Shown here piece by piece: positions 21,077 through 59,307 of a stretch of 64,000 bases of DNA. The translations under genes were made by a program, and so were the position numbers. Position 1 is the stretch's first letter; each line of letters begins with the position of its first letter. The stretch lies in NCBI RefSeq assembly GCF_040958095.1, contig NC_091185.1, positions 20,137,218-20,201,217 of the forward strand, read 5' to 3'. The DNA comes from Procambarus clarkii (lineage: Eukaryota; Arthropoda; Malacostraca; Decapoda; Cambaridae). The notes beneath the pieces are model-generated. The model saw only the letters and a program-made list of their open reading frames with translations, was not told the DNA's origin and made no database searches.

Positions 21077-21544
21077 GTGCCTACCCATAACAGGTTTCAT
21101 GTATTAGCAGAGGAGGATACCATACACCACCTACACACTGATAGTACACACAGTCATGTGCTCCAGACACCACGGTCGACCACACCAGTCTTGTGGTCTA
21201 ACATGCCTAACAAGGACACAGAAGGTCCTCTGATTTCAGCCACTCTGAAGGATCGACAAGTTAAAATGTTCCTAGACACAGGAGCTAGAGTCAACATCAT
21301 CAATCAAGCCGCCTTGCATGACATACACGACAGACTTGTACGCCTGCCATCTGTCTCCAAGCTTAGCGGAGTTTCTGGAGTAATGACTGCAGTGTTCGGT
21401 GAAACTAACATAGGGTTAATAGTTAATGACAGATCACTCGCCATGACATGTTTAATAGTAGATAATATTCGGTTCCCAGGAGACATCTTACTAGGACTGA
21501 ACACTATGAGAGACTACCGAATTACTATCGATGGTTACCGTTGA
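21077..21544 (+). pseudogene. Gypsy aspartic protease
   Basis: An open frame of 155 codons has the retropepsin catalytic triad in FLDTGARVNII (DTG at residues 67-69, 21275-21283). The C-terminal GDILLGLNTMRDYRI is the usual flap-to-end region with the hydrophobic-hydrophobic-Gly pattern. It would cleave the gag-pol polyprotein. The frame ends at a TGA right after the protease, where a functional element would continue toward RT, so this copy is broken. Confidence 0.8.
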
Positions 21545-22025
21545 GAAACAATCATTGGTGACACAGTAGTACCTCTTTGTAGTGTGTACGTCATGGGACA
21601 CGAGTTCGCCAACCATAGGGACTATATCAGTTACATAAAATCCAGGAGTGACTAGGATACACTTTACCAGTCACACCCAAACAAAGCCATGTTACTTACT
21701 CAGTTACTTTACAAGGGGCCCCAACAATTGTTCATTACCTTACTTGCCTAGAGTCTAACATCGTTCAAGTCAGAGGCATCGTACACCAAGACACAGTCCT
21801 TCATTCTCACGCACTAACAAAGGTTATTATCAAAATTCCTAGTGTACCTGACCTAGATCATTTAATAGCAGTGACACATGTCAAATTAAAGATACTTACA
21901 CAGAACCGTCCTCACATCAGATACAGAACAACACTACTGCTGTTTATGTTGCCAATGTCACCAATGCCAACATTCAACTCGCATCAGGCATACACATTGT
22001 AGACTTCACCCATTATTCGTTTCCG

Positions 22026-22832
22026 GTGCAGGTGGTGGATGAAGCCTCTACTGAACAAATAGTACATGCACTCTCTCATACGACAAATCGAAATCAGTTA
22101 GCGATCTCACGTGAACATTTTAGTCCCACTGACTTCCCAGATGCCAAAGCTCAGTTGCTGACCATCCTCAACAAACATTATACTGTTGTTGCACTGACAG
22201 GAGAACAACTTGGACTGACAGACCTCATCACTCACAAAATTCCTCTTGAACCAGGCACTCGACCAATTTATGTACCCGCATTCAGATTGCCTCATTCTCA
22301 ACGAGCTGTTGCAGACCGACTTATTGATGAGATGTTACACGGAGGTGTTATTGAAGGAAGTACCTCCCCATGGAATGCTCCATTGATCTTAGTACCCAAA
22401 AAGGATGGCTCTAGGGGTCCCATCGTTGATTTCAGAAATCTTAACCAAGTGACGATACCTGATAGATTTCCACTTCCCGTGCTCACTGACTTATTGCAGA
22501 ACATAGGCCAGAATAAGTTTTTTTCTTCACTTGATCTATTGCAAGGATTTTGGCAAATTCCACTTAACCCAGAAAGTCGAGAACCGACAGCGTTTTCAGT
22601 CCCTAACAGTCATTATCAGTACATCCACATGCCTTTTGGCTTACGCAGCAGCCCTATTACTTTCTCTAGGCTTATGACAAACTTGTTCCGACGAATTTCA
22701 TATAATACCCTCATGGTTTACGTCGATGACCTCATAATCATGTCCAAGGATGTGCCATCCCACATTCAAAGTTTAGACCGTGTTCTTCAGAAAGTATTTG
22801 ATGCTAATCTGAAAATTAAACTTACTAAATAG
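22026..22832 (+). pseudogene. Gypsy reverse transcriptase
   Basis: 268 codons contain all the classical motifs: IPLEPGTRPIYVPAFRLP, VIEGSTSPWNAPLILVPKKDG, VDFRNLNQVTIPDRFPLP, FSSLDLLQGFWQIPL and FGLRSSPITFSRLM. The catalytic YVDD is at residues 232-235 (22719-22730), followed by the thumb region. It ends in a TAG at 22830 where a sense codon (Cys or Lys-like) is expected. Translation of the same domain resumes a few codons on (VFLGHNVTPQG). Confidence 0.88.
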
Positions 22833-22851
22833 GCCTTCATAAAAAAAAATA

Positions 22852-23660
22852 ATGTTTCTTGGCCATAATGTCACCCCACAAGGCAACACCACTCCTGACT
22901 CAAAGATAGACGCTGTGAAGAACTATCCTGCCCCTCATAATGTTGAAGCTGTACAAAAAGTCATAGGCCTAGCAGGATCCTACCGCCATTTCATCGCTGG
23001 CACCTCAGTGATTGCGTCTCCTCTCACTCACCTCCTTAAGAAAGACGTCCCGTTCACTTGGACAGCTGATCAGGAGAAAGCGTTTCAAACACTTAAGAGG
23101 CTTTGATATCTGCTCCCATTTTCTAATTCCCATACTTCTCCAAACCGTTTGTCTTAGTCACCTACGCCAGTAATATTGGGTTAGGAGCAGGAGCTGTACT
23201 AACATAAACTAGCGACAGAAAAGAACATGCATACGCTAGTAGAGTCCTCTCCAAAGCAGAAAAAATTACTCGACAATAGAACGAGAAGCTTCAGCTGTAG
23301 TGTGGTCGCAAACATTTCAGAGACATTATCAACAACTTCCCTGTTCATGTACTGACAGACCACCAAGCCATCATTCCCTTCTTCAAAGAAAAGAACCCAA
23401 TAGGCAGGTTTGGCCTTTGGTCGCTCGCAATACAAGAGTTCCTACACATGTTTGGATACTTATCTGGCAGACATAATGTAGATACCGATGCCCTCTCCCG
23501 CTACATCTCTCCTATTCATGTTCAATACCCTTCATTAGACTTGCAAGATGTAGATACAACACAACAACACGACCCAATGTGGGCACCGATCATAAGCTTT
23601 CTAATAAACTCAAACACGACTCTTACCGTCAAGCCTCCCGTGCCGCTCAAGTAACTAGTA
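22852..23660 (+). pseudogene. Gypsy RT connection / RNase H and tether region
   Basis: 22852-23106 reads FLGHNVTPQG... FIAGTSVIASPLTHLLKKDVPFTWTADQEKAFQTLK, the RT-RNase H connection. From 23107 the RNase H region is recognisable in changing frames (FPYFSKPFVLVTYAS, GLGAGAVL, RVLSKAEK, REASAVVW). 23448-23654 contains GRHNVDTDALSR, the conserved end of RNase H in Gypsy elements. Multiple frameshifts are present. Confidence 0.75.
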
Positions 23661-23839
23661 CTCTTAAATCACGTGCTCCACCCCAAGGTTATGCTTGGCG
23701 TTCCTGCCAGAATGATACATCAACTTGTTATTAATGCGTGGATAGTACCTTCCGTGTTGAAACTTGTCCATGATGCCCCACGCAGTGCATATCCTGGCAA
23801 GGACCGCACCATAAATCAGGCTCGTCTCAAGTAGTCTTC

Positions 23840-24740
23840 GTCATACTACCTCAAGTACTACTGATCCAAAATGGCAAAACAGATTGAACATCATGTGGAT
23901 CAATGTCTATCATGCCTAGCTCACAGAGGCCACGTTGCTGGCCCGAACCCGATTCAGACTTACCCAACGACTAATGCACATTGGGACCGTGTTTCTATGG
24001 ACTTGCTAACAAACTTTGCTGAAACTTCTAAAGGAAATAAACATCTCCTAGTTATGGTAGATAACTTTTCAAGATACTGAAAACTGGTTCCGATTCCAAA
24101 CAAAACTGCATAAACAATAGCTAGTGCATTTCATAACATAATTTGCAGGTATGGTCCCCCTAGAGTTATATTCTCTGACAACGGCCCGGAATTCATCAAT
24201 TCTGTTCTGGAACAACTGGCTAAACTGTACAACATCAAAAATTGTAATATAATGCCTATCAACCAGCTAGCTTTGTCCTTGCTGAAAGAACCAATAAAAA
24301 GAGTACTTGACACACTCAGAGTAACAAACAATCGGGACAGTCACAATTGGGATGAACTTATGCCAATCGTCCAAAGCTCGATAAACTCCTCTGTCAACTT
24401 CTCCACAGGAGACACACCTCACTTTGTGCTTTTTGGGACAGACATGAGATTTCTTAACGCTCTCATATCCTCACCGCCTGTGCCGCTCTACAATTATGAT
24501 TATGTTAAAGTAAAACAAAGAGACACTCAATTGGTGTTCCAGAGAGTCAAGGATCACCTATCTAAAGCTACTGACGATTTCACTCGGTTAAAAAACGCCT
24601 ATGCTAAACCTACAAAAATAGGACTTGGATCTTTAGTAATGATCCTCAACCAGCGAAGAGATGGTCCCATGTACAAGTTGACTGAGAAGTTTCTTGGACT
24701 TTACAGAATTCTTGAGTGTATCACAGGTAACAAGTAAAAG
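23840..24740 (+). pseudogene. Gypsy integrase
   Basis: The zinc-binding N-terminus is partly present (HHVDQCLSCLAHRG, 23.9 kb). The catalytic core follows with the first Asp in WDRVSMDLLTNF and the second in VIFSDNGPEFIN (24171). The third acidic residue lies in a damaged stretch (LALSLLKEPIKRV) where HPQ.NGL.ER is normally found. The C-terminal part (GDTPHFVLFGTDMRF, 24.42 kb) and a YKLTEKFLGLYRI barrel-like end (24.68 kb) are clear. In-frame stops occur at 24080 and 24111. Confidence 0.8.
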
Positions 24741-24892: not shown

Positions 24893-26873
24893 ATGGTTTC
24901 GCAACACCTAGTACTCACACTTAAAACCTTCGGTCCAGATCAGTTATTTCGACAGTACACCACCAACAGTCTGCTCATACACGCCCGTGTGACTAGTGTT
25001 CCAGCCTGTAAAGGGCAATGGGTGCGTTATATCAGCTCCCCACTTCCTGACTGTCAGTATGTAGCAGTTCTACTACGTTCGTGACAAACTAGCCCCTAAC
25101 ATTCATAGTTTTTATGTCAAGCTGTAAGGGTAATGCTTACCATATTATAAACTAAGTAACCAGCTTAAGCCTACTAACTTCTTCCCTTTTGAACTAGCTC
25201 TAGTTAATATTATTACTAGCGAGCTTGTCCTGACTGAGTACCCAATCATTATGTGTGTTAGACACTTTTTATGTAACATTCCAACAGCGTATCCGTTGAG
25301 ATTTCCTGTGAAGATTACACCAATCAACATCTTTCTCAGTGGTTTTTATAGATCTGTTCTCTTTCCTTTGCCTCAAATGTATATATTATAATATCTACTC
25401 ATTTAACCTTAGTTTATAGTTTTAATCTTATCACGTCTCTTACAATCACTGTTTAAGTCCTCGTGTTTCTGACACGTCCCTGTGCTCCATATTTTAGTAG
25501 AACGTCACTTATACTATGTACTATATCGTGTCTATGTCAGTGTCCACCGTTTATAATCTGCTTAACAGGTAACACTGTGGCTGAGTATCATGATCCTTGA
25601 GCACAACTTTTAGTCCACTGCCTCTACATCCTACTCTGCCTCTACCTGCAGATGGACCTTCTGCCTCCAGTATGCGCAGACGTTTAGCTAATTAGTCATG
25701 ATGCTCCATGGATAGCTTAGTTTTATAATTATATTTCTGCCATATACTCTGTTCATGCATGTCTGAGATGTTGGACGTCTCAAAGCTTGTTTAAGGCCAC
25801 TAAAGATAAAACTGTACATAAATGTTAGTTTGGTACACAACCAAGAAGTTCATTAAGCAAATCGTCGAGGACGACGATGATAGCGTGCCAAGCGGTGTTG
25901 GACACCCAGGGTTAGTGGCTGCCATCTGACTGTCTAGTCAGCCCCTTCTTAGAACAAGGCGCTCCTTGTGTGCTCGCCCAAGCTGCAAGGAGTACCTTGT
26001 CAGGAGATGGATTTTTCCAGCTCCCTTGTGCACTGAAATGTGTGCACAGTATGTGTGCACCACAGCACGAGATTAAGAAGTACAACTCTCTCACAGTCAT
26101 GTTGGGTGTCTCCGGATAGCCCTTATTAAGTGTTAGTCATTAAAACTATTGTGGTTGCTGTAGCAAGTCTATAGAGAAAGTTATAACAGGGAGTTGATTT
26201 CAGGTGAATTTTTGTACAAGTTCAAGTGGAGAGAGGGGGTTTGGGGGGTTAACGGTTGTAGGCCGGCCACCCTCACGTGACTCCCTCGTGCCAGAGGGGG
26301 AGAGCGTCGTCTTGGAAGAATGTGATTGGCCGACGCTCCTGGGCCTCTGAGAGGCCTATCTGTGATTGGTGGAAGGAGCTGAGCGTACCGCCTGAGCGTG
26401 GGGCTCTCTTTTGGCACCAAGCCCCATTCTTATCCATGTCTGTTGCTGAAGGAGGACGTGTCGTTTTGTGCTAAGGCCAAGCACCGGAAAGACCGCCTGC
26501 AACGACACAAAAGTCACTCTCGATCATCGAGCCATCATCCCGGGACCATGGGAGTAAGAATCCGGTATCGTGGAAGAGGGAATCGGCAATATTAGCTAAC
26601 GAAGTGAACTTTGGAGGATCGTCACCTTCCTGCATGATTGTGGGATGCCATCCAAAGAAAATGGACTGTGGAGGATGTATTATATCTACGTGTGGTAGTG
26701 ACATCCATCGTCTATCGTGCCTTAGTTACAAGGTACTTGGGAGAGACGAACTTGTGAAAGTTTCAGTTTTGTGTTGGAAACCTAGAATTCGTAATTCTGC
26801 TGAATTACCCGTGAACAGTGAGGGACTGTCATTTTCACATGCCGTGCCGTACAGCGTCGTACTGAGCCGTGTT
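24893..26873. other. Spacer downstream of Gypsy, no gene supported
   Basis: A 63-codon frame at 24893-25084 lacks recognisable content; an env remnant is possible but unsupported. 25.1-26.2 kb is AT-rich with no signal. 26.2-26.6 kb is notably GC-richer and contains two GATTGG (inverted CCAAT-like) words at about 26321 and 26363, but no transcription start or ORF can be tied to them. Confidence 0.4.
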
Positions 26874-26880
26874 GAGGGCA
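26874..26880. repeat. Direct repeat (candidate TSD) left of giant palindrome
   Basis: GAGGGCA occurs here and again at 39136-39142, exactly at the outer edges of the two arms. With a 6-bp reading (GAGGGC) the element termini are perfectly symmetrical: AGTAGTAGGG ... CCCTACTACT. Confidence 0.65.
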
Positions 26881-27070
26881 GTAGTAGGGATGGCAGTCCA
26901 GCGGCTCCTTTTTTTTTTTGGGAGAGGACCCCTGTGGACTGCGCAGTCCACAGGCTCCTTTTTTTTTTCTGGGAGAAAATTCCCCTGTGCGGGCCAGGGT
27001 TTTCAGGATTCCCCTGTGCGGGCCAGGGTTTTCAGGATTCCTCTGTGCGGGCCAGGGTTTTCAGGTGAAT
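26881..27070. repeat. Terminal block: dyad 24-mer, T-tracts and 29-bp repeats
   Basis: A perfect 24-bp palindrome (half-site CCTGTGGACTGC) at 26931-26954 sits between two oligo-T tracts. It is followed by three tandem copies of a ~29-bp unit containing GTGCGGGCCAGGGTTTTCAGG (26980-27066); a fourth copy is at about 27325. Mirror image: 38945-39135, with the dyad at 39061-39084. Such subterminal palindromes are typical places for transposase binding, which is inference here. Confidence 0.75.
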
Positions 27071-27599
27071 TTGGGGAGTCACAGATTTGGAATTAGGGAA
27101 TTCTTATAATGAAAAATAATGTCATACTAATTTGTTAAAGTTCTTATGAGAAAAATAATTTCCAAGACATTGAAGTTTGTTAAGGGCTTATGGAACAAAT
27201 TCAAGTAACATATGTAGCTCTTTAGGGTTTCCAGGAGAACTCTACGGACATATTTTACATGTTTTCAACTTACAAATATCGTCTATGTAAGCCATAGTTT
27301 TTCAGGTAAATTTCGAAAATCACCTGTGCGGGCCAGGGTTTTCAGGGTTTCGTACATCACACCCCCCTCCCTCCCCCCTTACCTCGCAATCTGTCGCGTC
27401 ACCTTTATTTACTTTACGCCCGGCCAGCCAGACCTCTTATCTTATCTTATCTTCTTCATAATATCTCGACCATCCCTCCTCTCTCTCTCTCTCTCCTCCT
27501 CCTATTTCCTTACAACTATTTTCAGAGTTTCAAATAATCATAGAAGTTTATTTATATATTTATGACCGAATTTGTAAAAGGATCATTTTCAGAGAATAT

Positions 27600-28320
27600 T
27601 GTCTTAGATGTTTTGTTAAGGAAAACAGACAACTTATCCATAACACTTAGTTTTATATCCATTTACGGCTATTTCATCTGTAAAGACCAAATTGAACAGA
27701 GCCCGGTTTTAAGCTCATATTTCATCAGAGTCCAGTTTATACCTAAAAATGAACAGAGTCCACTTTGAGAGCAAAATTCGTCAGAGTCTACTTTGTGAGC
27801 AAAATTAGTCAGAGACAGTATTTAGCTCATATTTCATCAGAGTCCAATTATCAACAGAAATTCGTCAGAGACTACTTTGTGAGCAAAATTAGTCAGAGAC
27901 AGTATTCAGCTCATATTTCATCAGAGTCCAATTATCAACAGAAATTCGCCAGAGTCTACTTTGAGAGGAAATTTCATCAGTGTCCTGTAATCTGTGAAAA
28001 TTTGACAGAGTCCATTTTATACCCAATTTTCGTCAGAGACCATTTTATACCTAAAAATGAACAGAGTCTACTTTAATAGCAAAATTCATCAGAGTCCAGT
28101 TTTCTAGCAAATTTCATCAGTGTCCTGTAATCTGTGAAAATTTGACAGAGTCCAGTTCTTGATCGAAATTCATCAGAGTCCAGTTTTCTAGCAAAATTCG
28201 CCAGAGTCTACTTTGTGCCAAAATATTCAGAGTCCAGTTCATGATCGAAATTAATCAGAGTCCAATTAAAGACCCAAATTTGACAGAGACCACATTTTCG
28301 CTACTAACAGTCCAATCCCC
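27600..28320. repeat. Arm block: CATCAGAGTCCAGTTT-type repeats
   Basis: Irregular units of 30-55 bp share TCAGAGTC(C/T)A(G/C)TTT and (G/A)CAAAATT(C/A)(A/G)TC. Mirror block at about 37770-38420. The 56-bp arm difference lies inside this block, where the right arm has a shorter arrangement of the same units. Confidence 0.8.
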
Positions 28321-28389
28321 CTGAAATTTTAAACAGTCATATTTCAGACGTAGTAAATAAGATCAAGTCAGTTACAGAGCTCCAGCTCT

Positions 28390-28860
28390 TGTCCCCCTGT
28401 ATTTGCATATTTTCTCTATATTCAGCTGTGTTCTTCACATTTTTTCCATGTTTTCTGTGTTCATTCCATGTTCTATAAATGTTCACAGCAAGCTCAGTTC
28501 AAATTTTTTCTGCCATTTTCCCCGTATGTTCACTATGTTCTTTGTCATATTTTCATGTGCATCATATGTTCTCTGTATAACTTTTTATACTCAATATTCA
28601 TGTTCTCAATGTTCTTAGCTTGTTCTTCACACGTTCAGTGTTCATTCTTTGTATTCCCTATGTTCCTTATCATGTCTTCATATTCTCTATAAGTTCATAT
28701 TCCCAGCATGTTCACTGTATTCATCAACTTTTTCTTACGTGTTTTCTGTGTTCACCGTATGTTCACTGTGTTCATTCCCTTACTTAACCTCATTTTTTTT
28801 ATGTTCTTTGTTTCTTCCATTCACTAACTAGTTCTTTGTCAAATATTAGCATCAGCAATA
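28390..28860. repeat. Arm block: TGTTCATTTTCT-type repeats
   Basis: Repeated GTTC(A/T)(C/T)(A/T)(C/T)TGTTCAT words with no strict period. Mirror block at about 37200-37680. Confidence 0.7.
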
Positions 28861-28949
28861 CAGTTTCCTCAACAATTTTAGTCACCAAGTTTTTATTTGC
28901 AAAAACTATGTCAAAGTAATTCTCGTAGTCAACTTAATAGTTCTACCAG

Positions 28950-30120
28950 CCATGTTCTTAAACAAATCTACACTTTATTCAGTTCCAAATTTACAAAGAC
29001 AAACCTTTCTTGTAACTTCTTAACTAAAAATCTTTCGCCAATCAACTGAAACATAGTCACTTTCCTCATTTCTCAACTAACTTATTATCCAATCAACCAA
29101 AAAATTGTCAAAGGAATCTTTCCAACACTGTTCATAACTAAACTTATTCCCTAGTCATCAGAAAATAACCGTGTTCTTCATGTTTCATTGTCATTTCATA
29201 ACTAAAAAATCTTTCGCCAATCAACTAAAAACATAGTCACTTTCGTCATTTCTCAACTAAACTTATTATCCAGTCAACTAAAAATAGTCAGAAATAGCCT
29301 CGTTCAACACTGTTCTTAACTAAAACAACCTTTCTCTTAGCTAAAAATTGTCAAAGGAAACTTTTTTCAGCACTTTCTTAACAGGCGCTATGTTTCATCA
29401 AGAAAAAATTGTCAAAGGAAACTTTCCAAAACTGTTCATAACTAGCTTTTATCCATCGTCAATCAACTAAAAATAATAACTTTCATCATTTCTTAACTAA
29501 ACATATTCCCCATTCATCAGAAAATAACCGTGTTCATCATGTTTCATTGTCATTTCATAACTAAAATTATCTGCCAATCATCAGAAAAAGTCACTTTCAT
29601 CATTTCTTAACTAAACTTATTCCCCAGTCATCAGAAAATAACCGTGTTCTTCATGTTTCATTGTCATTTCTTATCTAAAAATTATCCGCCAATCATCAGA
29701 AAAAGTCATGTTCATCATGTTTTGTCTTTTGCTCAACTAAAAGTATTCATCGGTCAACTAAAAATAGTCTCGTTCATCATTTCGTAACAACCATTATGTT
29801 TTCGTCAAATAAGAAAATATAGTCACAGATATCTATCATCGTCATTCTTAACTGACATTTTATACTTTGTTGAGCACTAAAATAGCCACTTTCGTCATGT
29901 CTTGTCTTTTTCCATAACTAAAAGTATTCATCGGTCAACTAAAAAATAGTTACTTCATCATGTTTCCTTGTCATTTCTTAACTGAAATATCACTTCTCTC
30001 ATTTTAAAATAGTCAGAAATAGCCTCGTTCAACACTGTTCTTAACTAAAGTAACCTTTCACTTCGCTAGAATAGTCATATTCATCGTTGTTCCTAACTAA
30101 ATTATATGTCGTTAAGTAAG
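28950..30120. repeat. Arm block: AACTAAAAATAGTCAC-type repeats
   Basis: Units of ~45-60 bp combine AACTAAAA, ATAGTCAC and TTCATCATTTCTTAAC; several are near-identical over more than 60 bp (for example 29150-29230 and 29510-29580). Mirror block at about 35890-37070. Confidence 0.8.
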
Positions 30121-31260
30121 AAATATAGTCAAAGACACTCTTCGAGACATCAAGGACTTACTCAAAGACATCAAAGTTGCACTCAAAGACATCCTTTTCA
30201 TTCATCAGAGAAACTTTCTAAGACGTCTTTGTTCATTAAAGTTAATCTCTTGTCCACAAAGTTATTCTGAGCTATCAAACTTGTTCTCAAAGACATCAAA
30301 TGTTATTCACAGAGTCATCAAAGTTATTTTGTAACTCACTTTGTCCACAAAGTTATTCTGAGCTATCAAACTTGTTCTCAAAGTCATCAAATGTTATTCA
30401 CAGAGTCATCAAAGTTATTTTGTAACTCACTTTGTTCATAAAAGTTATTCTCAGTCATGTTATGTTATTCTCTAACTCACTTCCATTCATCAAAGACATT
30501 CTCTAACTCCTCAAAGTTAATCTCTAAGACAACAAAGTCTTTCTCAGAGCTAACAAACTTGTTCTCAAAGTCTTCAAAGTTATTCTAAGACATCATCTTT
30601 CATCAAAGATATTCTCTCTAAGTCATCAAAGTTACTTTTCATTACATCAAAGACGCATTCAAATACTACCCATGTTCTCAGAAGTCATTCTCAAAGGCAT
30701 CAAAGTTATTCAAAGAGCTAACAAAAGTTATTCTCAGAGTCACCTTCGTTCTTCAGAGAAACTTTCCAAAACATCTTTGTTCATCAAAGTTATTCTCAGA
30801 GTTAACAAAGGTAATCTCTAACTCACTCTCAGTCATCAAAGTTAATCCAAGAGACGTCAAAGTTAATCCAAGACATCATCTTTCATCAAAGATATTCTCT
30901 CTAAGCCATCAATGTTCTTCTCTAAGACATCAAAGTTATTCTCAGAGTCACCTTCGTTCTTCAGAGAAACTTTCCAAAACATCTTTATTCATCAAAGTTA
31001 TTCTCTAAGACAACAAAGTCTTTCTCAGAGCTACCAAAGATGTTCTCTAAATCATAAAAGTTAATCTTAACTCACCTTCGTTCATTAGAGAAACTTTCCA
31101 ATCCATATTCGTTGACCAGAGTTATTCTCAGAGTCATCAAAGTAATCTCTAATTCACCTTTGTTCTCCCAAAGTTGTTCTCTAAGACACCTTCGTTCACC
31201 AAAGAAACTCTCCTTCTTCCATCATGTTATACTTTAAGACATCTTCAGTCATAAAATTTC
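30120..31260. repeat. Arm block: CATCAAAGTTATTCTC-type repeats
   Basis: Units share TCATCAAAGTTATTCTCAGAG, with local duplications of ~100 bp (30250-30350 against 30345-30440). Mirror block at about 34760-35890. Confidence 0.8.
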
Positions 31261-31389
31261 TCTTCAAAATGTAACTAGTTCAGCTTTTCATACCAAACCT
31301 GCATTTCTGTTAAAACATATTTTCTTAGTTGCTTTACCCTAAAACTGTTCTCTGAACTACACTGTTCAAACCTACGTAACCTATCCTCT

Positions 31390-32120
31390 CCACCCAATGT
31401 TACTTAGTTAACGTAACGTTCCTAAACCTAACTTTACCTATCCTAACTTATTTAACTTATCTTACCTATCCTAACCTAACTTGCTTTACCTAACTTAATC
31501 TGCATAACCTAACTTTACCTAGGTTACCTTACCTTACCTATCTTACCTAACCTAACCTAACTCTACCTATGTTACCTTACCTTACCTACCTTTCCTAACT
31601 TAACCTGCTTAACCTATCTTACCTATCTTACCTAACTTTACCTATGTTACCTTACCTTACCTACCTTTCCTAACTTAACCTGCTTAACCTATCTTACCTA
31701 ACTTTTACCTATCTTACCTACCTTTCCTAACTTAACCTATGTTACCTTACCTTACCTATCTTACCTAACTTTACCTATCTTACCTTACCTTACCTACCTT
31801 TCCTAACTTAACCTGCTTAACCTATTTTACCTAACTTTACCTATCTTACCTAACTTAACTTTCATAACCTAACTTTACCTATCCTAACATAACTTACCTT
31901 ACCTTCCCTGTCTTACCTAACTTTACCTATCCTAACATAACTTACATTACCTATCATACCTAACTTAACCTAACTTTACCTATCCTAACTTAACTTACCT
32001 AACTTATTCTGCTTAACCTAACTTACCTACATTACCTAACTTAACCTGCTTAACCTAACTTATTTTAACTTATCTTACCTATCCTAACCTAACTTGCTTT
32101 ACCTAACTTAATCTTACATT
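31390..32120. repeat. Arm block: degenerate TTAGG-like array (CCTAA strand)
   Basis: About 730 bp of CTTACCTAACCTAACTTTACCTAT-like sequence is built on the arthropod telomere pentamer read as CCTAA, with many CTTAC variants. Mirror block at about 33895-34640 reads GGTTAGGTAAG. Confidence 0.8.
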
Positions 32121-32209
32121 CCCAAACTGATGTATCCTATCTTATCTAGTCAAACCAGACATGATCTAACTTACATAAGTATTCCTTCTTGTCTTTTGTG
32201 TTTCGTCAA

Positions 32210-32680
32210 TCATTGTCTCATATTCATTTACTCATTTCTTTAGTTAATTTCTCAAATGGTCACTTATGGATTTCAAGTGCTATTTGTTAGAGATTGGATA
32301 TTTAAGCATTTCAAAGAATGTTTGTTATATATGGGCATTTACTCATTTCAAGGGATAATTTCTCAAATGGACGTTTTTGCATTTCAAGTGTCATTTGTTT
32401 AAGATTGGGGTATTTAACCATTTCAAAGGATTTTTGTTATATATGGGAACTTACTCGTTTCAAGGGCCAATTTCTCAAATGGTCATTTTTGCAGATCAAG
32501 GGTTATTTGTTAAAGTTCATCAAGTTGCTCATAAGTTGTATTTATTATGTTTGTTATCATTTATTCTTATTCCCCAACCCCTTAACCTAACCTCTTGTAA
32601 TCTTAGTGTATTTGGTAGGTTCTATCATATGTTCTTATTCCCCAACCCTTTAACCTAACCTTTCAGATGTAGTTTATGGT
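32210..32680. repeat. Arm block: ~86-bp repeats near the centre
   Basis: Units contain CATTTCAAGTG.(C/T)ATTTGTT, GATTGG(A/G)(T/G)ATTTAA(G/C)CATTTCAAA and TCAAATGG(A/T)C. Mirror block at about 33330-33810. The right arm has one additional 86-bp unit, showing that the arms evolve separately. Confidence 0.8.
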
Positions 32681-32808
32681 GTTTTTAACGTATTTGTTGA
32701 ATATATTATCCTTTTCCTAATCTTTCAGATGTAGTTTTGTTTCTCCTTTTTGTATATTTTTACCCAAACCCACCATCCCACTTAACTTTCTTTCCTTCTT
32801 TTACTTTG

Positions 32809-33198
32809 ATTCTCCTACTCCTTCTAACCCTCCTTTTCTATCTCTCTCCCTTATTCTCTCTCTTCCTCCCCCGCTCTCTCCCTCATTTGCTCAAATGCTC
32901 TCTTGTTTCTCAAATTCAAGTCTTATTGCTCCCATTCTCACACCCTCACTCTCATTCACTTAGTTTTCTTTTTTCTCAAATTCAAGTCTTAGTTCCCCCA
33001 TGCCCACACTCTCTCTCTCTCTCATTCTCGCTTCTTTGGTCCCATTTTCTTCCGCCCCCTCTCTCTTACTCCTTGCTCTTCTTTCATGCTCTCACTCCCT
33101 TGAGCTCTTGTTTCTCAATTTCAAGTCTTAGTAGATCTGATTCTTTACTATTGTAATTCTATTATTACTAAGATAAAGAATGAACTTATATGTGAAAA
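32809..33198. other. 390-bp single-copy centre of palindrome, polypyrimidine
   Basis: The plus strand is overwhelmingly C and T (CTCTCTCTC runs) until about 33130. Three direct copies of TCTCAA(A/T)TTCAAGTCTTA lie at about 32907, 32977 and 33111. It is not repeated in inverted orientation. A 140-codon plus frame runs through it (32737-33156) but is Ser/Leu/Pro/Phe-rich because of the base composition. I see no transposase. Confidence 0.7.
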
Positions 33199-36100
33199 CA
33201 AAGTAAAAGAAGGAAAGAAAGTTAAGTGGGATGGTGGGTTTGGGTAAAAATATACAAAAGGAGAAACAAAACTACATCTGAAAGGTTAGGAAAAGGATAA
33301 TATATTCAACAAACTACATCTGAAAGGTTAGGTTAAAGGGTTGGGGAATAAGAACATATGATAGAACCTACCAAATACACTAAGATTACAAGAGGTTAGG
33401 TTAAGGGGTTGGGGAATAAGAATAAATGATAACAAACATAATAAATACAACTTATGAGCAACTTGATGAACTTTAACAAATAACCCTTGATCTGCAAAAA
33501 TGACCATTTGAGAAATTGGCCCTTGAAACGAGTAAGTTCCCATATATAACAAAAATCCTTTGAAATGGTTAAATACCCCAATCTTAAACAAATGACACTT
33601 GAAATGCAAAAACGTCCATTTGAGAAATTATCCCTTGAAATGAGTAAATGCCCATATATAACAAACATTCTTTGAAATGCTTAAATATCCAATCTCTAAC
33701 AAATAGCACTTGAAATGCATAAGTGACCATTTGAGAAATTATAATTCTTTGAAATGCTTAAATATTCAATCTCTAACAAATAGCACTTGAAATCCATAAG
33801 TGACCATTTGAGAAATTAACTAAAGAAATGAGTAAATGAATATGAGACAATGATTGACGAGACACAAAAGACAAGAAGGAATACTTATGTAAGTTAGATC
33901 ATGTCTGGTTTGACTAGATAAGATAGGATACATCAGTTTGGGAATGTAAGATTAAGTTAGGTAAAGCAAGTTAGGTTAGGATAGGTAAGATAAGTTAAAA
34001 TAAGTTAGGTTAAGCAGGTTAAGTTAGGTAATGTAGGTAAGTTAGGTTAAGCAGAATAAGTTAGGTAAGTTAAGTTAGGATAGGTAAAGTTAGGTTAAGT
34101 TAGGTATGATTGGTAATGTAAGTTATGTTAGGATAGGTAAAGTTAGGTAAGATAGGGAAGGTAAGGTAAGTTATGTTAGGATAGGTAAAGTTAGGTTATG
34201 AAAGTTAAGTTAGGTAAGATAGGTAAAGTTAGGTAAAATAGGTTAAGCAGGTTAAGTTAGGAAAGGTAGGTAAGGTAAGGTAAGATAGGTAAAGTTAGGT
34301 AAGATAGGTAAGGTAAGGTAACATAGGTTAAGTTAGGAAAGGTAGGTAAGATAGGTAAAAGTTAGGTAAGATAGGTAAGATAGGTTAAGCAGGTTAAGTT
34401 AGGAAAGGTAGGTAAGGTAAGGTAACATAGGTAAAGTTAGGTAAGATAGGTAAGATAGGTTAAGCAGGTTAAGTTAGGAAAGGTAGGTAAGGTAAGGTAA
34501 CATAGGTAGAGTTAGGTTAGGTTAGGTAAGATAGGTAAGGTAAGGTAACCTAGGTAAAGTTAGGTTATGCAGATTAAGTTAGGTAAAGCAAGTTAGGTTA
34601 GGATAGGTAAGATAAGTTAAATAAGTTAGGATAAGTAAAGTTAGGTTTAGGAACGTTACGTTAACTAAGTAACATTGGGTGGAGAGGATAGGTTACGTAG
34701 GTTTGAACAGTGTAGTTCAGAGAACAGTTTTAGGGTAAAGCAACTAAGAAAATATGTTTTAACAGAAATGCAGGTTTGGTATGAAAAGCTGAACTAGTTA
34801 CATTTTGAAGAGAAATTTTATGACTGAAGATGTCTTAAAGTATAACATGATGGAAGAAGGAGAGTTTCTTTGGTGAACGAAGGTGTCTTAGAGAACAACT
34901 TTGGGAGAACAAAGGTGAATTAGAGATTACTTTGATGACTCTGAGAATAACTCTGGTCAACGAATATGGATTGGAAAGTTTCTCTAATGAACGAAGGTGA
35001 GTTAAGATTAACTTTTATGATTTAGAGAACATCTTTGGTAGCTCTGAGAAAGACTTTGTTGTCTTAGAGAATAACTTTGATGAATAAAGATGTTTTGGAA
35101 AGTTTCTCTGAAGAACGAAGGTGACTCTGAGAATAACTTTGATGTCTTAGAGAAGAACATTGATGGCTTAGAGAGAATATCTTTGATGAAAGATGATGTC
35201 TTGGATTAACTTTGACGTCTCTTGGATTAACTTTGATGACTGAGAGTGAGTTAGAGATTACCTTTGTTAACTCTGAGAATAACTTTGATGAACAAAGATG
35301 TTTTGGAAAGTTTCTCTGAAGAACGAAGGTGACTCTGAGAATAACTTTTGTTAGCTCTTTGAATAACTTTGATGCCTTTGAGAATGACTTCTGAGAACAT
35401 GGGTAGTATTTGAATGCGTCTTTGATGTAATGAAAAGTAACTTTGATGACTTAGAGAGAATATCTTTGATGAAAGATGATGTCTTAGAATAACTTTGAAG
35501 ACTTTGAGAACAAGTTTGTTAGCTCTGAGAAAGACTTTGTTGTCTTAGAGATTAACTTTGAGGAGTTAGAGAATGTCTTTGATGAATGGAAGTGAGTTAG
35601 AGAATAACATAACATGACTGAGAATAACTTTTATGAACAAAGTGAGTTACAAAATAACTTTGATGACTCTGTGAATAACATTTGATGACTTTGAGAACAA
35701 GTTTGATAGCTCAGAATAACTTTGTGGACAAAGTGAGTTACAAAATAACTTTGATGACTCTGTGAATAACATTTGATGTCTTTGAGAACAAGTTTGATAG
35801 CTCAGAATAACTTTGTGGACAAGAGATTAACTTTAATGAACAAAGACGTCTTAGAAAGTTTCTCTGATGAATGAAAAGGATGTCTTTGAGTGCAACTTTG
35901 ATGTCTTTGAGTAAGTCCTTGATGTCTCGAAGAGTGTCTTTGACTATATTTCTTACTTAACGACATATAATTTAGTTAGGAACAACGATGAATATGACTA
36001 TTCTAGCGAAGTGAAAGGTTACTTTAGTTAAGAACAGTGTTGAACGAGGCTATTTCTGACTATTTTAAAATGAGAGAAGTGATATTTCAGTTAAGAAATG

Positions 36101-39100
36101 ACAAGGAAACATGATGAAGTAACTATTTTTTAGTTGACCGATGAATACTTTTAGTTATGGAAAAAGACAAGACATGACGAAAGTGGCTATTTTAGTGCTC
36201 AACAAAGTATAAAATGTCAGTTAAGAATGACGATGATAGATATCTGTGACTATATTTTCTTATTTGACGAAAACATAATGGTTGTTACGAAATGATGAAC
36301 GAGACTATTTTTAGTTGACCGATGAATACTTTTAGTTGAGCAAAAGACAAAACATGATGAACATGACTTTTTCTGATGATTGGCGGATAATTTTTAGATA
36401 AGAAATGACAATGAAACATGAAGAACACGGTTATTTTCTGATGACTGGGGAATAAGTTTAGTTAAGAAATGATGAAAGTGACTTTTTCTGATGATTGGCA
36501 GATAATTTTAGTTATGAAATGACAATGAAACATGATGAACACGGTTATTTTCTGATGAATGGGGAATATGTTTAGTTAAGAAATGATGAAAGTTATTATT
36601 TTTAGTTGATTGACGATGGATAAAAGCTAGTTATGAACAGTTTTGGAAAGTTTCCTTTGACAATTTTTTCTTGATGAAACATAGCGCCTGTTAAGAAAGT
36701 GCTGAAAAAAGTTTCCTTTGACAATTTTTAGCTAAGAGAAAGGTTGTTTTAGTTAAGAACAGTGTTGAACGAGGCTATTTCTGACTATTTTTAGTTGACT
36801 GGATAATAAGTTTAGTTGAGAAATGACGAAAGTGACTATGTTTTTAGTTGATTGGCGAAAGATTTTTTAGTTATGAAATGACAATGAAACATGAAGAACA
36901 CGGTTATTTTCTGATGACTAGGGAATAAGTTTAGTTATGAACAGTGTTGGAAAGATTCCTTTGACAATTTTTTGGTTGATTGGATAATAAGTTAGTTGAG
37001 AAATGAGGAAAGTGACTATGTTTCAGTTGATTGGCGAAAGATTTTTAGTTAAGAAGTTACAAGAAAGGTTTGTCTTTGTAAATTTGGAACTGAATAAAGT
37101 GTAGATTTGTTTAAGAACATGGCTGGTAGAACTATTAAGTTGACTACGAGAATTACTTTGACATAGTTTTTGCAAATAAAAACTTGGTGACTAAAATTGT
37201 TGAGGAAACTGTATTGCTGATGCTAATATTTGACAAAGAACTAGTTAGTGAATGGAAGAAACAAAGAACATAAAAAAAATGAGGTTAAGTAAGGGAATGA
37301 ACACAGTGAACATACGGTGAACACAGAAAACACGTAAGAAAAAGTTGATGAATACAGTGAACATGCTGGGAATATGAACTTATAGAGAATATGAAGACAT
37401 GATAAGGAACATAGGGAATACAAAGAATGAACACTGAACGTGTGAAGAACAAGCTAAGAACATTGAGAACATGAATATTGAGTATAAAAAGTTATACAGA
37501 GAACATATGATGCACATGAAAATATGACAAAGAACATAGTGAACATACGGGGAAAATGGCAGAAAAAATTTGAACTGAGCTTGCTGTGAACATTTATAGA
37601 ACATGGAATGAACACAGAAAACATGGAAAAAATGTGAAGAACACAGCTGAATATAGAGAAAATATGCAAATACAGGGGGACAAGAGCTGGAGCTCTGTAA
37701 CTGACTTGATCTTATTTACTACGTCTGAAATATGACTGTTTAAAATTTCAGGGGGATTGGACTGTTAGTAGCGAAAATGTGGTCTCTGTCAAATTTGGGT
37801 CTTTAATTGGACTCTGATTAATTTCGATCATGAACTGGACTCTGAATATTTTGGCACAAAGTAGACTCTGGCGAATTTTGCTAGAAAACTGGACTCTGAT
37901 GAATTTCGATCAAGAACTGGACTCTGTCAAATTTTCACAGATTACAGGACACTGATGAAATTTGCTAGAAAACTGGACTCTGATGAATTTCGATCAAGAA
38001 CTGGACTCTGTCAAATTTTCACAGATTACAGGACACTGATGAAATTTGCTCTCAAAGTAGACTCTGGCGAATTTCTGTTGATAATTGGACTCTGATGAAA
38101 TATGAGCTGAATACTGTCTCTGACTAATTTTGCTCACAAAGTAGTCTCTGACGAATTTCTGTTGATAATTGGACTCTGATGAAATATGAGCTAAATACTG
38201 TCTCTGACTAATTTTGCTCACAAAGTAGACTCTGACGAATTTTGCTCTCAAAGTGGACTCTGTTCATTTTTAGGTATAAACTGGACTCTGATGAAATATG
38301 AGCTTAAAACCGGGCTCTGTTCAATTTGGTCTTTACAGATGAAATAGCCGTAAATGGATATAAAACTAAGTGTTATGGATAAGTTGTCTGTTTTCCTTAA
38401 CAAAACATCTAAGACAATATTCTCTGAAAATGATCCTTTTACAAATTCGGTCATAAATATATAAATAAACTTCTATGATTATTTGAAACTCTGAAAATAG
38501 TTGTAAGGAAATAGGAGGAGGAGAGAGAGAGAGAGAGGAGGGATGGTCGAGATATTATGAAGAAGATAAGATAAGATAAGAGGTCTGGCTGGCCGGGCGT
38601 AAAGTAAATAAAGGTGACGCGACAGATTGCGAGGTAAGGGGGGAGGGAGGGGGGTGTGATGTACGAAACCCTGAAAACCCTGGCCCGCACAGGTGATTTT
38701 CGAAATTTACCTGAAAAACTATGGCTTACATAGACGATATTTGTAAGTTGAAAACATGTAAAATATGTCCGTAGAGTTCTCCTGGAAACCCTAAAGAGCT
38801 ACATATGTTACTTGAATTTGTTCCATAAGCCCTTAACAAACTTCTATGTCTTGGAAATTATTTTTCTCATAAGAACTTTAACAAATTAGTATGACATTAT
38901 TTTTCATTATAAGAATTCCCTAATTCCAAATCTGTGACTCCCCAAATTCACCTGAAAACCCTGGCCCGCACAGAGGAATCCTGAAAACCCTGGCCCGCAC
39001 AGGGGAATCCTGAAAACCCTGGCCCGCACAGGGGAATTTTCTCCCAGAAAAAAAAAGGAGCCTGTGGACTGCGCAGTCCACAGGGGTCCTCTCCCAAAAA

Positions 39101-39135
39101 AAAAAAGGAGCCGCTGGACTGCCATCCCTACTACT
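33199..39135 (-). repeat. Right arm of giant palindrome
   Basis: Inverted copy of 26880-32808 with the same block order mirrored. It lacks 21 bp near 33315 and 56 bp near 37960, and gains an 86-bp tandem unit at about 33712-33797. Confidence 0.9.
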
Positions 39136-39142
39136 GAGGGCA
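39136..39142. repeat. Direct repeat (candidate TSD) right of giant palindrome
   Basis: GAGGGCA is identical to 26874-26880. Flanking sequence beyond it (CATGGTACCATCTTAGC...) is unrelated to the left flank. Confidence 0.65.
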
Positions 39143-39337
39143 TGGTACCATCTTAGCTGTGTGAGGCTACAAACCTCACCTGGGTCTCCTCCTGCTTACC
39201 CTAGGCCCGGAGGGGAGTACCATCCACAACCACCCTGGTCCGTGTGTCAGGACACCACGCCAGCCACCCCTTGGTCCCAGCTGACCACGTGAACGAAGTG
39301 GGAGGACCCCCACTTCACCATCTACTGCAGCAGCAAG

Positions 39338-41640
39338 TTTTTTTTCTTTATTTTTATTTTTACTTGCACGAATGCAATTAACTACAATAAAACAGAATAC
39401 AATATAAACATGCAAGCAAAGAAAAAAACATAGTAACAATCAACAAATTAAACATAGGAGCACCAGCCTAAAGGACCGACAATAAAGCACATCACGAATT
39501 AAATACACATAATACACAGTAACAAAACACAGAACCACCGGTCTGAAAGGCCGCCAGCAAAACAGGAACATGAATCACCAGGAACAAGATAATATGAAAT
39601 GTGCAATACAAAACAATACACACAAAAAACACAGAAAATATTTACATAAAGGAAACACAGGCTATATAAAAAAAAAACAAGACAGGAACAAGCAAAGAAT
39701 CAGCCCGAAGGGTCTCTGCAAAACACAAACGAGCGCACCAATAACACAAACAAACCAAAACAGGCCCATGCAGGAGCCAAGAGGAAACACCCACATGCGC
39801 ACACACAATGCCACCCCCCTCCCCTCGCGCACGTAGTCATCAGGCAAACAGAGCACGGACTACTGATACTTTTCTGGAAACCGAGATGCCGGGAACCATA
39901 AACAATACGCCTCCCAAAGCAACTGGGCGTTCTCCGGAACCTGAGAACCGTAATCCATATCCGGCCGAGGCATTAAGTTCGGCACACCCTGGATAAAACA
40001 CCGTCCTCGCGGAACCCAAACGCAAGTAGGATCCCACGGAACCGGGAGCACGCGCTCAAGTGTGTGAAAACGCACAGTGTAAAAAGTATGCACGTCCCCG
40101 GAGGCCAAGACGATAGGTAAATGGTTCACTTCAGGGGGGCCTGGGACAAGACGGCTCACTCAGAGACACCGCAAAGGCCGCCTCATTACCCATGGGATGA
40201 CGTGCCTGCTGGGACCCCCCACGACGGGCATCCTTCTTCAGCACCATGACGATGCCACGGCGAGCACCAGTACCCACCGCATCGACAGCAGGAGGAGCTA
40301 CCTCCTCCCACCGCGGAGAACCGTCCGCCGAAGGCAGAACCAAAGGCACCGCAGAGAGACAGGCACCTAAATCACCAGCAACACCAGGCACATGGACCTC
40401 CGCCACCACCAACCGCTCGGAGTGCGAGGCAACCTGAACCACCTCCTCGACACTCGAAGCCTCACCGTCACTGAAGTCACCCACATCCGCCCAGGCAGAA
40501 GACGAACGCCGGGAACGCTTGGGCACCAGTCGTACATCATCAGAGCTGGAAGCAGATCCTGAAGCACGGGCCCCACAAGCCGGGCGGACTGACGCACGAC
40601 GCAAGACGGCAGCAGCCTCAACCACTGGGGGAACCGGACCGCACACAGCAGGTGGCCCTGCCACCCCAACATCCAGCACAGTCGGAACACAAGGCAAGGG
40701 CGTAGGGCCAGGAGCAGGAGCAGAAGACGAGGAAGAGAAGAGCGCCGACGAAGCACGGAGATTGCCCAGAAGGCCTACGGGAGCAGCAGGGACAGCGACA
40801 GGATCAGGATGAACATCCGACGGCACGGCAACACCCGGAGGAGGGTCCACAACAACTGAGAAAAGGACGGGTGCCGCAGGGGAAGCCGAAGCAGTTAACG
40901 GGACACTCACTTCCTCACCCCCGGAGTCCTCCTCCAGAGGGAGCGGCGGGAAATTCTTCTCCTGGAACAAGTTGACGGGAGCAACCAAAGCCGCAGTGCA
41001 CCCGGCAGCCTGATGCCCCAATAGGCCACACCGAAAACAGGTACGGGGCTGCTGGGCATAAATACACCTGGACGTAGTACCCCATAAGCCGGACAGAGGA
41101 TGGTATATCCGACCGTAGGGGCATCCCCAGGGTATTTATGTTCGTCCGCAAACCTGCATACTTCCCCAAGGAGAGCGTGTTCACCCGCACACTGAATACA
41201 GCTCTAAACATCTGGAAGTAACGGCGGAATAGGTCTTCGGGAAACTCCAGGGGTGCCCCGTGCAAACTGACATATGTCAGGGCACCACTACGGTCCGAGA
41301 TAAACACAGATCCGGCACCACCCGGCATCGGCAACGAATGCCCCTCATATCGTCGGAGGAAGTCACGGTATTCCTCCTCCCTCACGAACTTGAGAATAAC
41401 CCAAGTAGCAGTTACAAGCTCCACATTGAAGATGGCAATCACTGGGACACGGAGCATGTCACACATAGCAGTCTCGACTTCACGGTATCCAGCACGGCCA
41501 GTGAACTCCAGGCCCACGGAGTTCACCCTCACAACAAGGGGGATAGATGGCCGCCTATCGCAAGCTCACCACGTCACCACGTAGCCAGGCAGCAACAGCA
41601 GAGAGGGCAGAGACGCCCACACCCCCTGACGACTAAAGCG
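39338..41640 (-). mobile_element. ORF1-only LINE derivative, copy A
   Basis: A minus-strand element of about 2.3 kb has a 5' leader, one gag-like ORF, a 3' UTR with two hairpin-like GC motifs and an A-rich tail (T-run at 39338-39361, interrupted by C and A). No endonuclease or RT sequence lies between ORF1 and tail. The 5' limit is set by loss of similarity to the copies at 46.0 and 47.6 kb, at about 41640. No clear TSD was found. The left flank (39143-39337) is GC-rich and not recognised. Confidence 0.78.
39860..41563 (-). pseudogene. Gag-like ORF1 of copy A (CCHC), frameshifted, start lost
   Basis: The N-terminal region (RVNSVGLEFTGRAGYREV..., from about 41532) is collinear with the copy at 47.76 kb. 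The equivalent of its ATG is ATA here. After MGYYVQVY a one-base insertion (TATTTATG against TACTATG) shifts the frame just before the knuckle CFRCGLLGHQAAGC (about 41035). The NFPPLPLEED motif, a Pro/Ala/Val-rich region, a basic patch (VPKRSRRSS) and a second frameshift near 40150 follow. The protein ends in FPEKYQ and TAG at 39860-39862. Confidence 0.78.
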
Positions 41641-41780
41641 GCAAACAACCCTCAACGACCAGTAAAATGAACAGTAAAATGTGTACTTGGATGAAAAAAC
41701 GATTCTTCGCGGCAGGGGATCGTATTCCAGGGACCTGCCCGAAACGCTACGCGTACTAGTGGCTGTACAAGAATGTAACA
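41641..41780. other. Flank of copy A, unassigned
   Basis: Contains ACCTGCCCGAAACGCTACGC; no coding signal. It may belong to another interspersed repeat, but there is no second copy here. Confidence 0.35.
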
Positions 41781-47622: not shown

Positions 47623-47761
47623 AGCTGCCATGAGATATCGACGTGTCGCCTGGCCTCTGGTAGTTTGGGGTGTTTGCCGTTTTCGTTGCCAGGGGGTGTG
47701 GGCGTCTCTGCCCTCCCCCTGCTGTTGCTGCCTGGCTGTGTGTTGACGTAGCGAGCTTGCC

Positions 47762-53559: not shown

Positions 53560-54175
53560 ATCATAACCTAACCTAGCCATAGGTTTGGTTAGGTTATAGT
53601 TAGCAATAACCATAACCTAATCTATCCTGTTAGGTTAACCATACCCTAATGGGTTGTGTCGTCGATTGGTTAGATTATGGTTAGGTAATGGTTAGGTTGG
53701 GTTATGGGGTTAGGTTATGGTTAGGTTATGGGGTTAGGTTATGGTTAGGTTAGGTTATGGGGTTAGGTTATGGTTAGGTTATGGCTAGGTTATAGTTAAG
53801 TTAGGTTAGGTTATGATTAAATTTCGTTAGGTTATTGGTAGGTTAGTTTATGGTAAGGTTATTGGTAGGTTAGTTTATGGTAAGGTTATTGGTAGGTTAG
53901 TTTAAGGTAAGGTAAGGTTAGATTAGGTTATGGTTAGGTTATTGATAGGTTAGGTTATGTTATGGTTAGGCTATAGGGTAGGTTAGGTTATAATTAGGTT
54001 ATCGATATATATGGGTTAGGTTATCGATAGATATGGGTTAGGTTATAATTAGGTTAGGATATGGTTGGGTTATGGTTAGGTTAGGTAATAGGTTATATTA
54101 TGGTTATGGTTAGGTTACATCAGGTAAGGTAACATCAGTTACATCAACAGGTAAGGTTGGATATGGTTAGGTTAG
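53560..54175. repeat. Degenerate TTAGG-like array, block 1
   Basis: GGTTAGGTTATGGTTAGGTTA-type sequence: TTAGG pentamers alternate with TTATGG hexamers. It begins in a CCTAA-oriented patch at 53570-53650 and then flips to TTAGG orientation. Confidence 0.8.
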
Positions 54176-58425: not shown

Positions 58426-58426
58426 T

Positions 58427-59306: not shown

Positions 59307-59307
59307 A

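Follow-up and report, generated by a model that had tools for sequence, protein, structure and literature searches.

Self-comparison of the window, the whole 64,000-nucleotide stretch of Procambarus clarkii DNA analysed here, delineated a 12,256-bp inverted repeat at positions 26880-39135, in which arms of 5,929 and 5,936 bp surround a 391-bp centre. The palindrome of 12.26 kb originally predicted, with two 5.93-kb arms and a centre of about 390 bp, was thus recovered. Repeat finding (TRF) also bore out the view of the arms as stacks of different tandem minisatellites. The features of the element are as follows.

26874..26879, no strand: left target-site duplication GAGGGC, read directly, an exact match to 39136-39141
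26880..26889, + strand: left terminus AGTAGTAGGG, the Maverick end motif (AGT)2 followed by AGGG
26880..27080, + strand: terminal hairpin and subrepeat zone, T-run hairpin modules and three 29-bp units (TRF)
26880..32808, + strand: left arm, 5,929 bp, the shared terminus followed by minisatellite blocks
26959..27501, + strand: stretch common to the PolB-bearing Maverick C40, 77% identity
about 27.7-28.3 kb, left arm: 28-bp units
about 29.3-31.2 kb, left arm: 21-124-bp units
31.4-32.1 kb, left arm: ACCTA-like repeats
32.2-32.5 kb, left arm: 112-bp units
32809..33199, no strand: central unpaired spacer, 391 bp, pyrimidine-rich
33200..39135, - strand: right arm, 5,936 bp, the left arm copied inverted
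38515..39056, - strand: inverted copy of the Maverick-shared stretch
39126..39135, - strand: right terminus CCCTACTACT
39136..39141, no strand: right target-site duplication GAGGGC

The two arms are separated by 13 substitutions, several of which fall in one misaligned tandem-copy patch, and by 7 gap events, amounting to 0.22% substitution; they carry different indels of 9, 20, 56 and 77 bp. The left arm is G-poor on the + strand (11% G, 23% C), and no Rfam family matched in the region 26000-40000. The element runs from AGTAGT to ACTACT, with AGTAGTAGGGATGGCAGTCC opening both ends, so that the termini are symmetrical, as was anticipated. Among the 82 AGTAGT...ACTACT pairs located 200-40,000 bp apart in the window, only the element's own pair has identical 6-bp flanks. 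The direct repeat had been given as 6-7 bp; the six bases GAGGGC hold, and the seventh, A, is to be dropped, being on the left side the first base of the element itself. The terminal segment 26880-27019, folded as DNA, outperformed 198 of 200 shuffles.

Inspection of open reading frames identified no recognisable gene in 26880-39135, and none for protein-primed PolB, rve integrase, ATPase or capsid proteins. The only ATG/GTG/TTG frame of at least 150 aa that touches the element (154 aa, 26604-27068) extends across its left end, and the longest internal stop-to-stop frame is a low-complexity stretch of 151 aa over the pyrimidine-rich centre, in agreement with the prediction that the element has no transposase of its own. 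Lacking these PolB, integrase, ATPase and capsid genes, it is classed as a non-autonomous derivative and not as a Maverick proper.

Copies across the genome

Over the 4.03 Gb searched, the forward strand contains 1,164 and 72 matches to two end patterns, compared with 0 for a reversed-pattern control; the family is estimated at a thousand or so copies. The terminus is present at the start of 36 of the 38 other scored terminus matches (34 with AGTAGTAGGG and 2 with AGTAGGGGGG), and over their terminal 0.6 kb, the scored copies match the window copy at 84-95% identity. Exact 6-bp duplications, all different from one another, flank 13 of 15 inverted end pairs, the window copy included, where the best end combination was taken in each fetched stretch and, for 9 of the 15, only the ends were read. 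Adding 7 PolB loci to these 15 pairs, which belong to the gene-less family or have an unread interior, brings the count to 19 of 22, with 19 different sequences. Thus, other copies with different flanks and their own duplications exist, and the proposal that the palindrome is one mobile unit is upheld. Uninterrupted paralogous (not allelic) sites are indicated by 34 of 45 rows that, judged by coordinates only, cross the junction in one alignment at 70-84% identity. An exact search of viral_contigs with two terminal words gave 0 matches.

In a search with the arm interior, 38 of the 40 scored matches form 19 inverted pairs, including that of the window, and on C1, 14 of 18 plus-ends pair up. 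Five of the six gene-less copies read through are long palindromes (the window, C234, C48, C5:41.8 Mb and C2:0.92 Mb), the sixth being a short form of 1.9 kb. The 18.5-kb copy at C2:0.92 Mb, considered as a one-armed progenitor, turned out to be a palindrome with one arm interrupted by other DNA that contains a 677-aa frame. Not all pairs are palindromes: the pair at C75:11.4 Mb and the end at C1:6.8 Mb track the PolB-Maverick terminus beyond 0.9 kb.

Within one element, the arms differ by 0.09-0.27% substitution (4 elements; 5 substitutions in 5,862 positions for C48), versus 4-33% between arms of different elements in four global comparisons, of which the 27-33% values are inflated by register shifts in the alignment of repeat arrays. 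The centre is 95-100% identical at 40 scored genomic places, window included, and is better conserved than the arms. In two elements, the centre lies in opposite orientations, at 96% identity. The spacer of C5:41.8 Mb differs from the centre in the window, and C48, a candidate for a centre-less palindrome, retains about 55 unpaired bp; with such differing centres, a single snap-back event cannot account for all copies.

The terminal hairpins vary between copies, whereas the stem halves agree within each copy in a permutation test on 32 ends, which leaves relatedness and inheritance of whole cassettes uncontrolled; a further end (pC8, of 33 in all) could not be parsed by the pattern and was left out. 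At 9 of the 32 kept ends, the within-copy stems do not exceed that end's between-copy mean, or lie within one pair of it. Fold z-scores are below -2 at 17 of 25 ends and not at the other 8, under plain shuffling, a weak control.

A terminus shared with PolB-bearing Mavericks

PolB-bearing Mavericks in the same genome share these ends, and 6 of the 7 tested are flanked by exact 6-bp duplications. The C40 Maverick has AGTAGTAGGG ends, the duplication CTTAAC, and frames that pass the Pfam thresholds for the polymerase (DNA_pol_B_2), the packaging ATPase (Pox_A32), the integrase (rve) and Chromo, along with an Ulp1-like match below the cut-off; the MCP-like frame of a related Maverick matches a Procambarus clarkii protein. 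Over 443 bp, the C2:0.92 Mb palindrome is 93% identical to the C40 terminus. Homology to C40 ends about 0.62 kb from the element end, and beyond this point the arms resemble none of the Maverick loci compared, so that a Maverick origin does not account for the minisatellite arms. For PolB group A (C24), the 8.8 and 8.7 kb fetched on its two sides contained no AGTAGTAGGG end, and among the few interiors read, no Maverick combined minisatellite arms with a full gene set.

Vertebrate Mavericks are bounded by 5'-(AGT)2//(ACT)2-3' ends and 6-bp duplications, and the intact ones have terminal inverted repeats of 46-1,447 bp (PMC8097293). Our element resembles Mavericks/Polintons (polintoviruses) in its duplication, ends and terminal inverted repeats, as well as in the terminal sequence it has in common with a PolB-bearing copy of the same genome, but it is gene-less and palindromic, with minisatellite arms and 5.9-kb inverted repeats. 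A search confined to a collection of PMC full texts returned no paper on a non-autonomous or miniature Polinton/Maverick, and within the same scope, none of the matches listed concerned palindromic Mavericks, as far as their titles or abstract openings indicate.

Origin and spread of the palindromes

We conclude that the element is, very probably, a Maverick/Polinton derivative, gene-less and foldback-shaped, which is probably replicated and integrated in trans by Maverick enzymes. Of what a Maverick would need in cis, it retains the AGTAGT end, the hairpin zone at the terminus and roughly 0.5 kb of terminal sequence, the rest consisting of two mirror-image minisatellite arms around a short centre. 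We infer that a Maverick protein-primed polymerase and integrase copy and insert the element; the palindrome would have originated when a displaced single strand snapped back and was copied, and at each round, the arms may be re-copied from one another via a panhandle or hairpin intermediate.

Alternatively, gene conversion by the host once the element has inserted, and not hairpin replication, could maintain the likeness of its arms, an option to be taken seriously even if we lean against it. Inverted arms a few kilobases apart convert well in other systems, and the inverted centres are likewise consistent with recombination between the arms. In 10 of the 13 inverted pairs compared, the arms agree at 99.2-99.9% close to their ends; at C171 the figure is 94.9%, and at C131 and C60 the similarity runs on into the flank. 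The extreme tips of C67 and of the PolB locus C53 differ between the two ends while the duplications are intact; neither observation decides between the two mechanisms.

That the family originated independently of Mavericks and merely captured a Maverick terminus by recombination appears rather unlikely. The lack of similarity to the compared Maverick loci past about 0.62 kb would fit such a history, but the terminus, captured or inherited, sits at the insertion junction together with the Maverick footprint, so that mobility runs through it even if it was captured.

The original prediction placed the palindrome among Foldback-like elements. Under this reading, a Foldback-, Galileo- or Mutator-type element is moved by a cut-and-paste transposase and its likeness to Maverick ends is coincidental, which we find highly improbable and largely refuted. 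The anatomy does fit, in that the inverted repeats are long and internally repetitive and a transposase is absent. The two-TIR copies of Drosophila Galileo (P superfamily) are likewise non-autonomous and consist almost entirely of inverted repeat, some with internal tandem repeats, and the longest inverted repeats belong to copies without transposase; however, they average 1.7-2.2 kb, have 7-bp target sequences and represent another lineage (PMC3573991). Similarly, Drosophila Tetris, a Foldback-type element assigned near Mutator by its authors, has terminal inverted repeats with tandem arrays and no coding capacity, but its duplications are 8-10 bp long and its inverted repeats reach 1,735 bp (PMC4079207). 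The crayfish elements have inverted repeats with tandem subrepeats, whereas their duplication is 6 bp in all 19 pairs that have one. The duplication of Foldback itself is 9 bp. Kinship with Foldback or Galileo is rejected on the length of the duplication and on the termini, which, with about 0.5 kb of adjoining sequence, are common to PolB-bearing Mavericks of the same genome; given that both ends and footprint are those of a Maverick/Polinton, the resemblance to Foldback is convergence in shape. The element is gene-less and abundant like a MITE, but at 12,256 bp it is far longer than the usual limit of 600 bp given in the Galileo report (PMC3573991).

Large palindromes are also a known artefact shape. 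A false palindrome assembled from foldback long reads, as C48, mirrored nearly end to end, and the C131 pair, mirrored past the element on a 1.5-Mb contig, might suggest, is nevertheless rejected as the general cause, with hardly any probability left to it, by the different flanks on the two sides with their exact duplications, the arm indels and the recurrence of pairs at many loci; C131 and C60, where similarity continues beyond the element and no duplication was found, are excepted.

The derivation from Mavericks allows a further, tentative reading, which as a whole we hold to be doubtful: the palindromes could be satellites of a Maverick virus, defective genomes formed by snap-back and retaining nothing beyond the origin and integration end. 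Mavericks are regarded as bridging transposons and large DNA viruses. In linear DNA viruses such as adenovirus and parvovirus, a palindromic defective genome would likewise keep only one end, mirrored, and need a helper polymerase, but the crayfish palindromes are integrated in host chromosomes, in many copies and with duplications. The Maverick polymerase would copy them as self-complementary hairpins, so that the arms would stay identical, the centre could flip and the terminal stems would match within a copy. Packaging in Maverick capsids may occur because the palindromes are genome-sized (9-15 kb for most spans, compared with about 13.5 kb), and re-entry into the chromosome would proceed through the Maverick integrase. 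Such satellites would have grown to about a thousand copies and could brake their parent Maverick.

A numerous gene-less family with Maverick ends provides a natural test of the cis requirements of Mavericks, of whether their polymerase starts on AGTAGT ends, and of whether animal germlines give rise to defective, satellite-like forms. It also reveals where 6-kb inverted repeats and minisatellites can come from in a crustacean genome. Slide-back initiation would be expected to generate extra terminal AGT triplets; at least three are present at 31 of 1,164 forward ends, compared with about 18 expected if the preceding host triplet were random, a mild excess only, and slide-back variation in AGT number was accordingly set aside.

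Structure of the window element and its insertion site

The original prediction of a palindrome with two inverted arms and a direct flanking repeat, then read as a giant Foldback-like transposon, was borne out in its structure. The element comprises the following parts:

26880-32808, left arm of the inverted repeat
26880-27080, modular terminal hairpin zone, with comparable modules at the ends of other copies
32809-33199, centre, 391 bp
33200-39135, right arm of the inverted repeat

Both ends start with AGTAGTAGGGATGGCAGTCC, and GAGGGC adjoins each of them outside; among the 82 AGTAGT...ACTACT pairs in the window, the element's own is the single one with identical 6-bp flanks. The Foldback duplication is 9 bp. 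The arms are composed of stacked minisatellites; in the left arm, the plus strand is G-poor (11% G, 23% C) throughout its various blocks. The reading frames of the window yielded no recognisable gene in either arm. Arm-to-arm comparison gave 0.22% substitution and 7 gap events, including indels of 9, 20, 56 and 77 bp; thus, the two arms are separate sequences. In a search with the joined flanks (40 places scored of 83), 34 of 45 rows span the insertion junction in a single alignment, and, by these alignment coordinates and coverage, the element is inserted into a dispersed host repeat.

Copies, arms and terminal hairpins across the genome

The first 601 bp of the element were compared with the 4.03-Gb genome, in which the window occupies C36:20137218-20201217, and 40 places were scored out of 3,095 candidates, many of them forming inverted pairs approximately 8-13 kb apart. 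Sequence was retrieved for each of the 38 scored places that lie beyond the window; the terminus is present at 36, as AGTAGTAGGG in 34 and as AGTAGGGGGG in 2, and the two places with neither form are the pair on contig C131. Fifteen inverted pairs were tested for duplication (that of the window, 12 from the 601-bp search and 2 from an end-pattern search), and 13 carry exact 6-bp duplications of 13 different sequences, so that the search for further copies with their own flanks, proposed with the original prediction, was successful. For the C131 and C60 pairs, no exact 6-bp duplication is demonstrable because the inverted similarity continues beyond the element into the flanks, which reflects either a larger inverted duplication or an assembly fault; the C60 ends are 1.5 Mb apart.

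Genome-wide, the pattern AGTAGTAGGG-N8..13-CACAG-N3..8-T8 has 1,164 forward and 2,801 reverse matches, the latter number being inflated because one end can count several times, and its reversed-pattern control has none. The AGCGG form, which is that of the window element, adds 72 forward and 181 reverse matches, again with 0 for the control pattern. On contig C1, a minus-end lies within 20 kb of 14 of the 18 plus-ends (two share one partner), and the paired ends span 1.9-14.8 kb. From these counts and the C1 pairing, we put the number of elements, including those bearing PolB, at about a thousand or higher. Two same-strand ends with the same module, C1:6831470 and C1:6832433, 963 bp apart, are either nested or tandem termini.

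Six gene-less copies, including the window element, were read end to end. Palindromes among these are the window element, C234 (12,587 bp), C48 (11,808 bp), C5:41.8 Mb (8,665 bp) and C2:0.92 Mb, the last being 18.5 kb long with other DNA inserted in one arm; the 1,888-bp copy at C1:62.98 Mb has inverted repeats of 556 bp at 90% identity. When a 1.14-kb block located more than 3 kb inside the arm was used as the query (40 scored matches of 4,177 candidates), 38 of the 40 fell in 19 inverted pairs, that of the window included, with equal or nearly equal scores of both members in most pairs. Within elements, arm substitution is 0.22% in the window, 0.15% in C234, 0.27% in C5:41.8 Mb and 0.09% in C48 (innermost 40 bp left out). 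Between elements, global alignment gave differences, inflated by shifts of repeat register, of 4.0% for the C234 and C48 arms and 27-33% in three comparisons of the window arms with other elements.

Of the 40 places scored for the centre, 32809-33199 (1,606 candidates), each of the 39 besides the window holds it once, at 95-99% identity; it is better conserved than the arm block, for which identity falls to 76% among its 40 scored places. The window and C234 centres are mutually inverted and 96% identical, so that the centre occurs in either orientation; that of C5:41.8 Mb differs from the window centre, and the unpaired centre of C48 is only about 55 bp.

The copies vary in short modules inside AGTAGTAGGG, yet within a single copy the opposing halves of a hairpin are often matched. 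Across 32 ends, the mean best stem was 11.3 within copies vs 6.8 between copies, a value reached in none of 20,000 permutations, and likewise for the 28 ends retained after duplicate removal. Predicted folds include uninterrupted stems of 22-26 pairs at 5 of 25 ends and of fewer than 10 pairs at 12 of 25. The matching stems look like the product of re-copying by local fold-back, and are not proof of structure under selection. In C67 and the PolB-bearing C53, the terminal modules differ between the two ends, with the duplications intact. One end of C67 carries (AGT)4.

Relation to Maverick/Polinton elements

Intact vertebrate Mavericks are described as having 6-bp duplications and, most commonly, 5'-(AGT)2//(ACT)2-3' ends (PMC8097293). 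The profile of viral PolB, PF03175, has 95 matches in this genome and 0 across 14 control genomes. On contig C40, PolB lies inside a copy of approximately 13.5 kb, flanked by CTTAAC on both sides, with ends consisting of AGTAGTAGGG and a hairpin module. In frames beside PolB, matches to DNA_pol_B_2, Pox_A32, rve and Chromo exceed their Pfam cut-offs; an Ulp1-protease match in one frame is below the cut-off. A 467-aa frame of the C40 Maverick, which matches an uncharacterised Procambarus clarkii protein at 55% and no Pfam family above its cut-off, is likely the capsid protein, judging from its size and position. Both ends and an exact duplication were found at 6 of the 7 PolB loci tested; the stretch fetched for C13 excludes the far end. 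In a second PolB group (C24:42801881 and similar, with frames of approximately 1,253 aa), no AGTAGTAGGG end was detected within the stretches fetched. The PolB-side terminus of C40 is identical to the far-side ends of C16 over 834 bp and C57 over 805 bp, sequence identity that suggests recent activity.

Positions 80-622 of the window element are 77% identical to the C40 terminus, and the C2:0.92 Mb palindrome shares 93% (443 bp) with it; the pair at C75:11.4 Mb and the end at C1:6.8 Mb match the PolB-Maverick terminus, not the palindrome arm. Because the duplication, end motif and terminal sequence are common to the palindromes and the PolB Mavericks, the palindromes have Maverick ends. We classify them as gene-less Maverick derivatives rather than Mavericks proper, given that they have the ends and the 6-bp footprint but no genes. 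In the repeatome of another crayfish, Pontastacus leptodactylus, Polinton is reported at 0.09%, and the main text of that study does not contain the terms maverick, foldback, palindrom or inverted repeat (PMC7859515).

The palindromes carry Maverick ends and a Maverick footprint, polymerase and integrase frames occur in a Maverick of the same genome, and the arms are alike within copies. The main rival explanation of this last observation is gene conversion in place, which would keep the arms alike. Under the Maverick-based scheme, Maverick enzymes would act in trans on the palindromes, which might have formed via snap-back synthesis on a displaced strand, the arms being homogenised in a hairpin or panhandle intermediate; the palindromes might also be packaged. 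Slide-back occurs in protein-primed replication, and defective palindromes are known in adenoviruses.

Other features of the window

To the left of the element, at 21077-24737, frames resembling the protease, reverse transcriptase and integrase of a Gypsy-type retrotransposon were recognised by eye, as were gag-like frames in three related stretches of mixed orientation (40254-41662, 44792-46010 and 47640-49032). Long arrays of a GGTTA-like, telomere-like unit occupy an internal position, 53667-59307, and a further near-palindrome of 364 bp, with a 90% self-inverted match, lies at 63290-63653.
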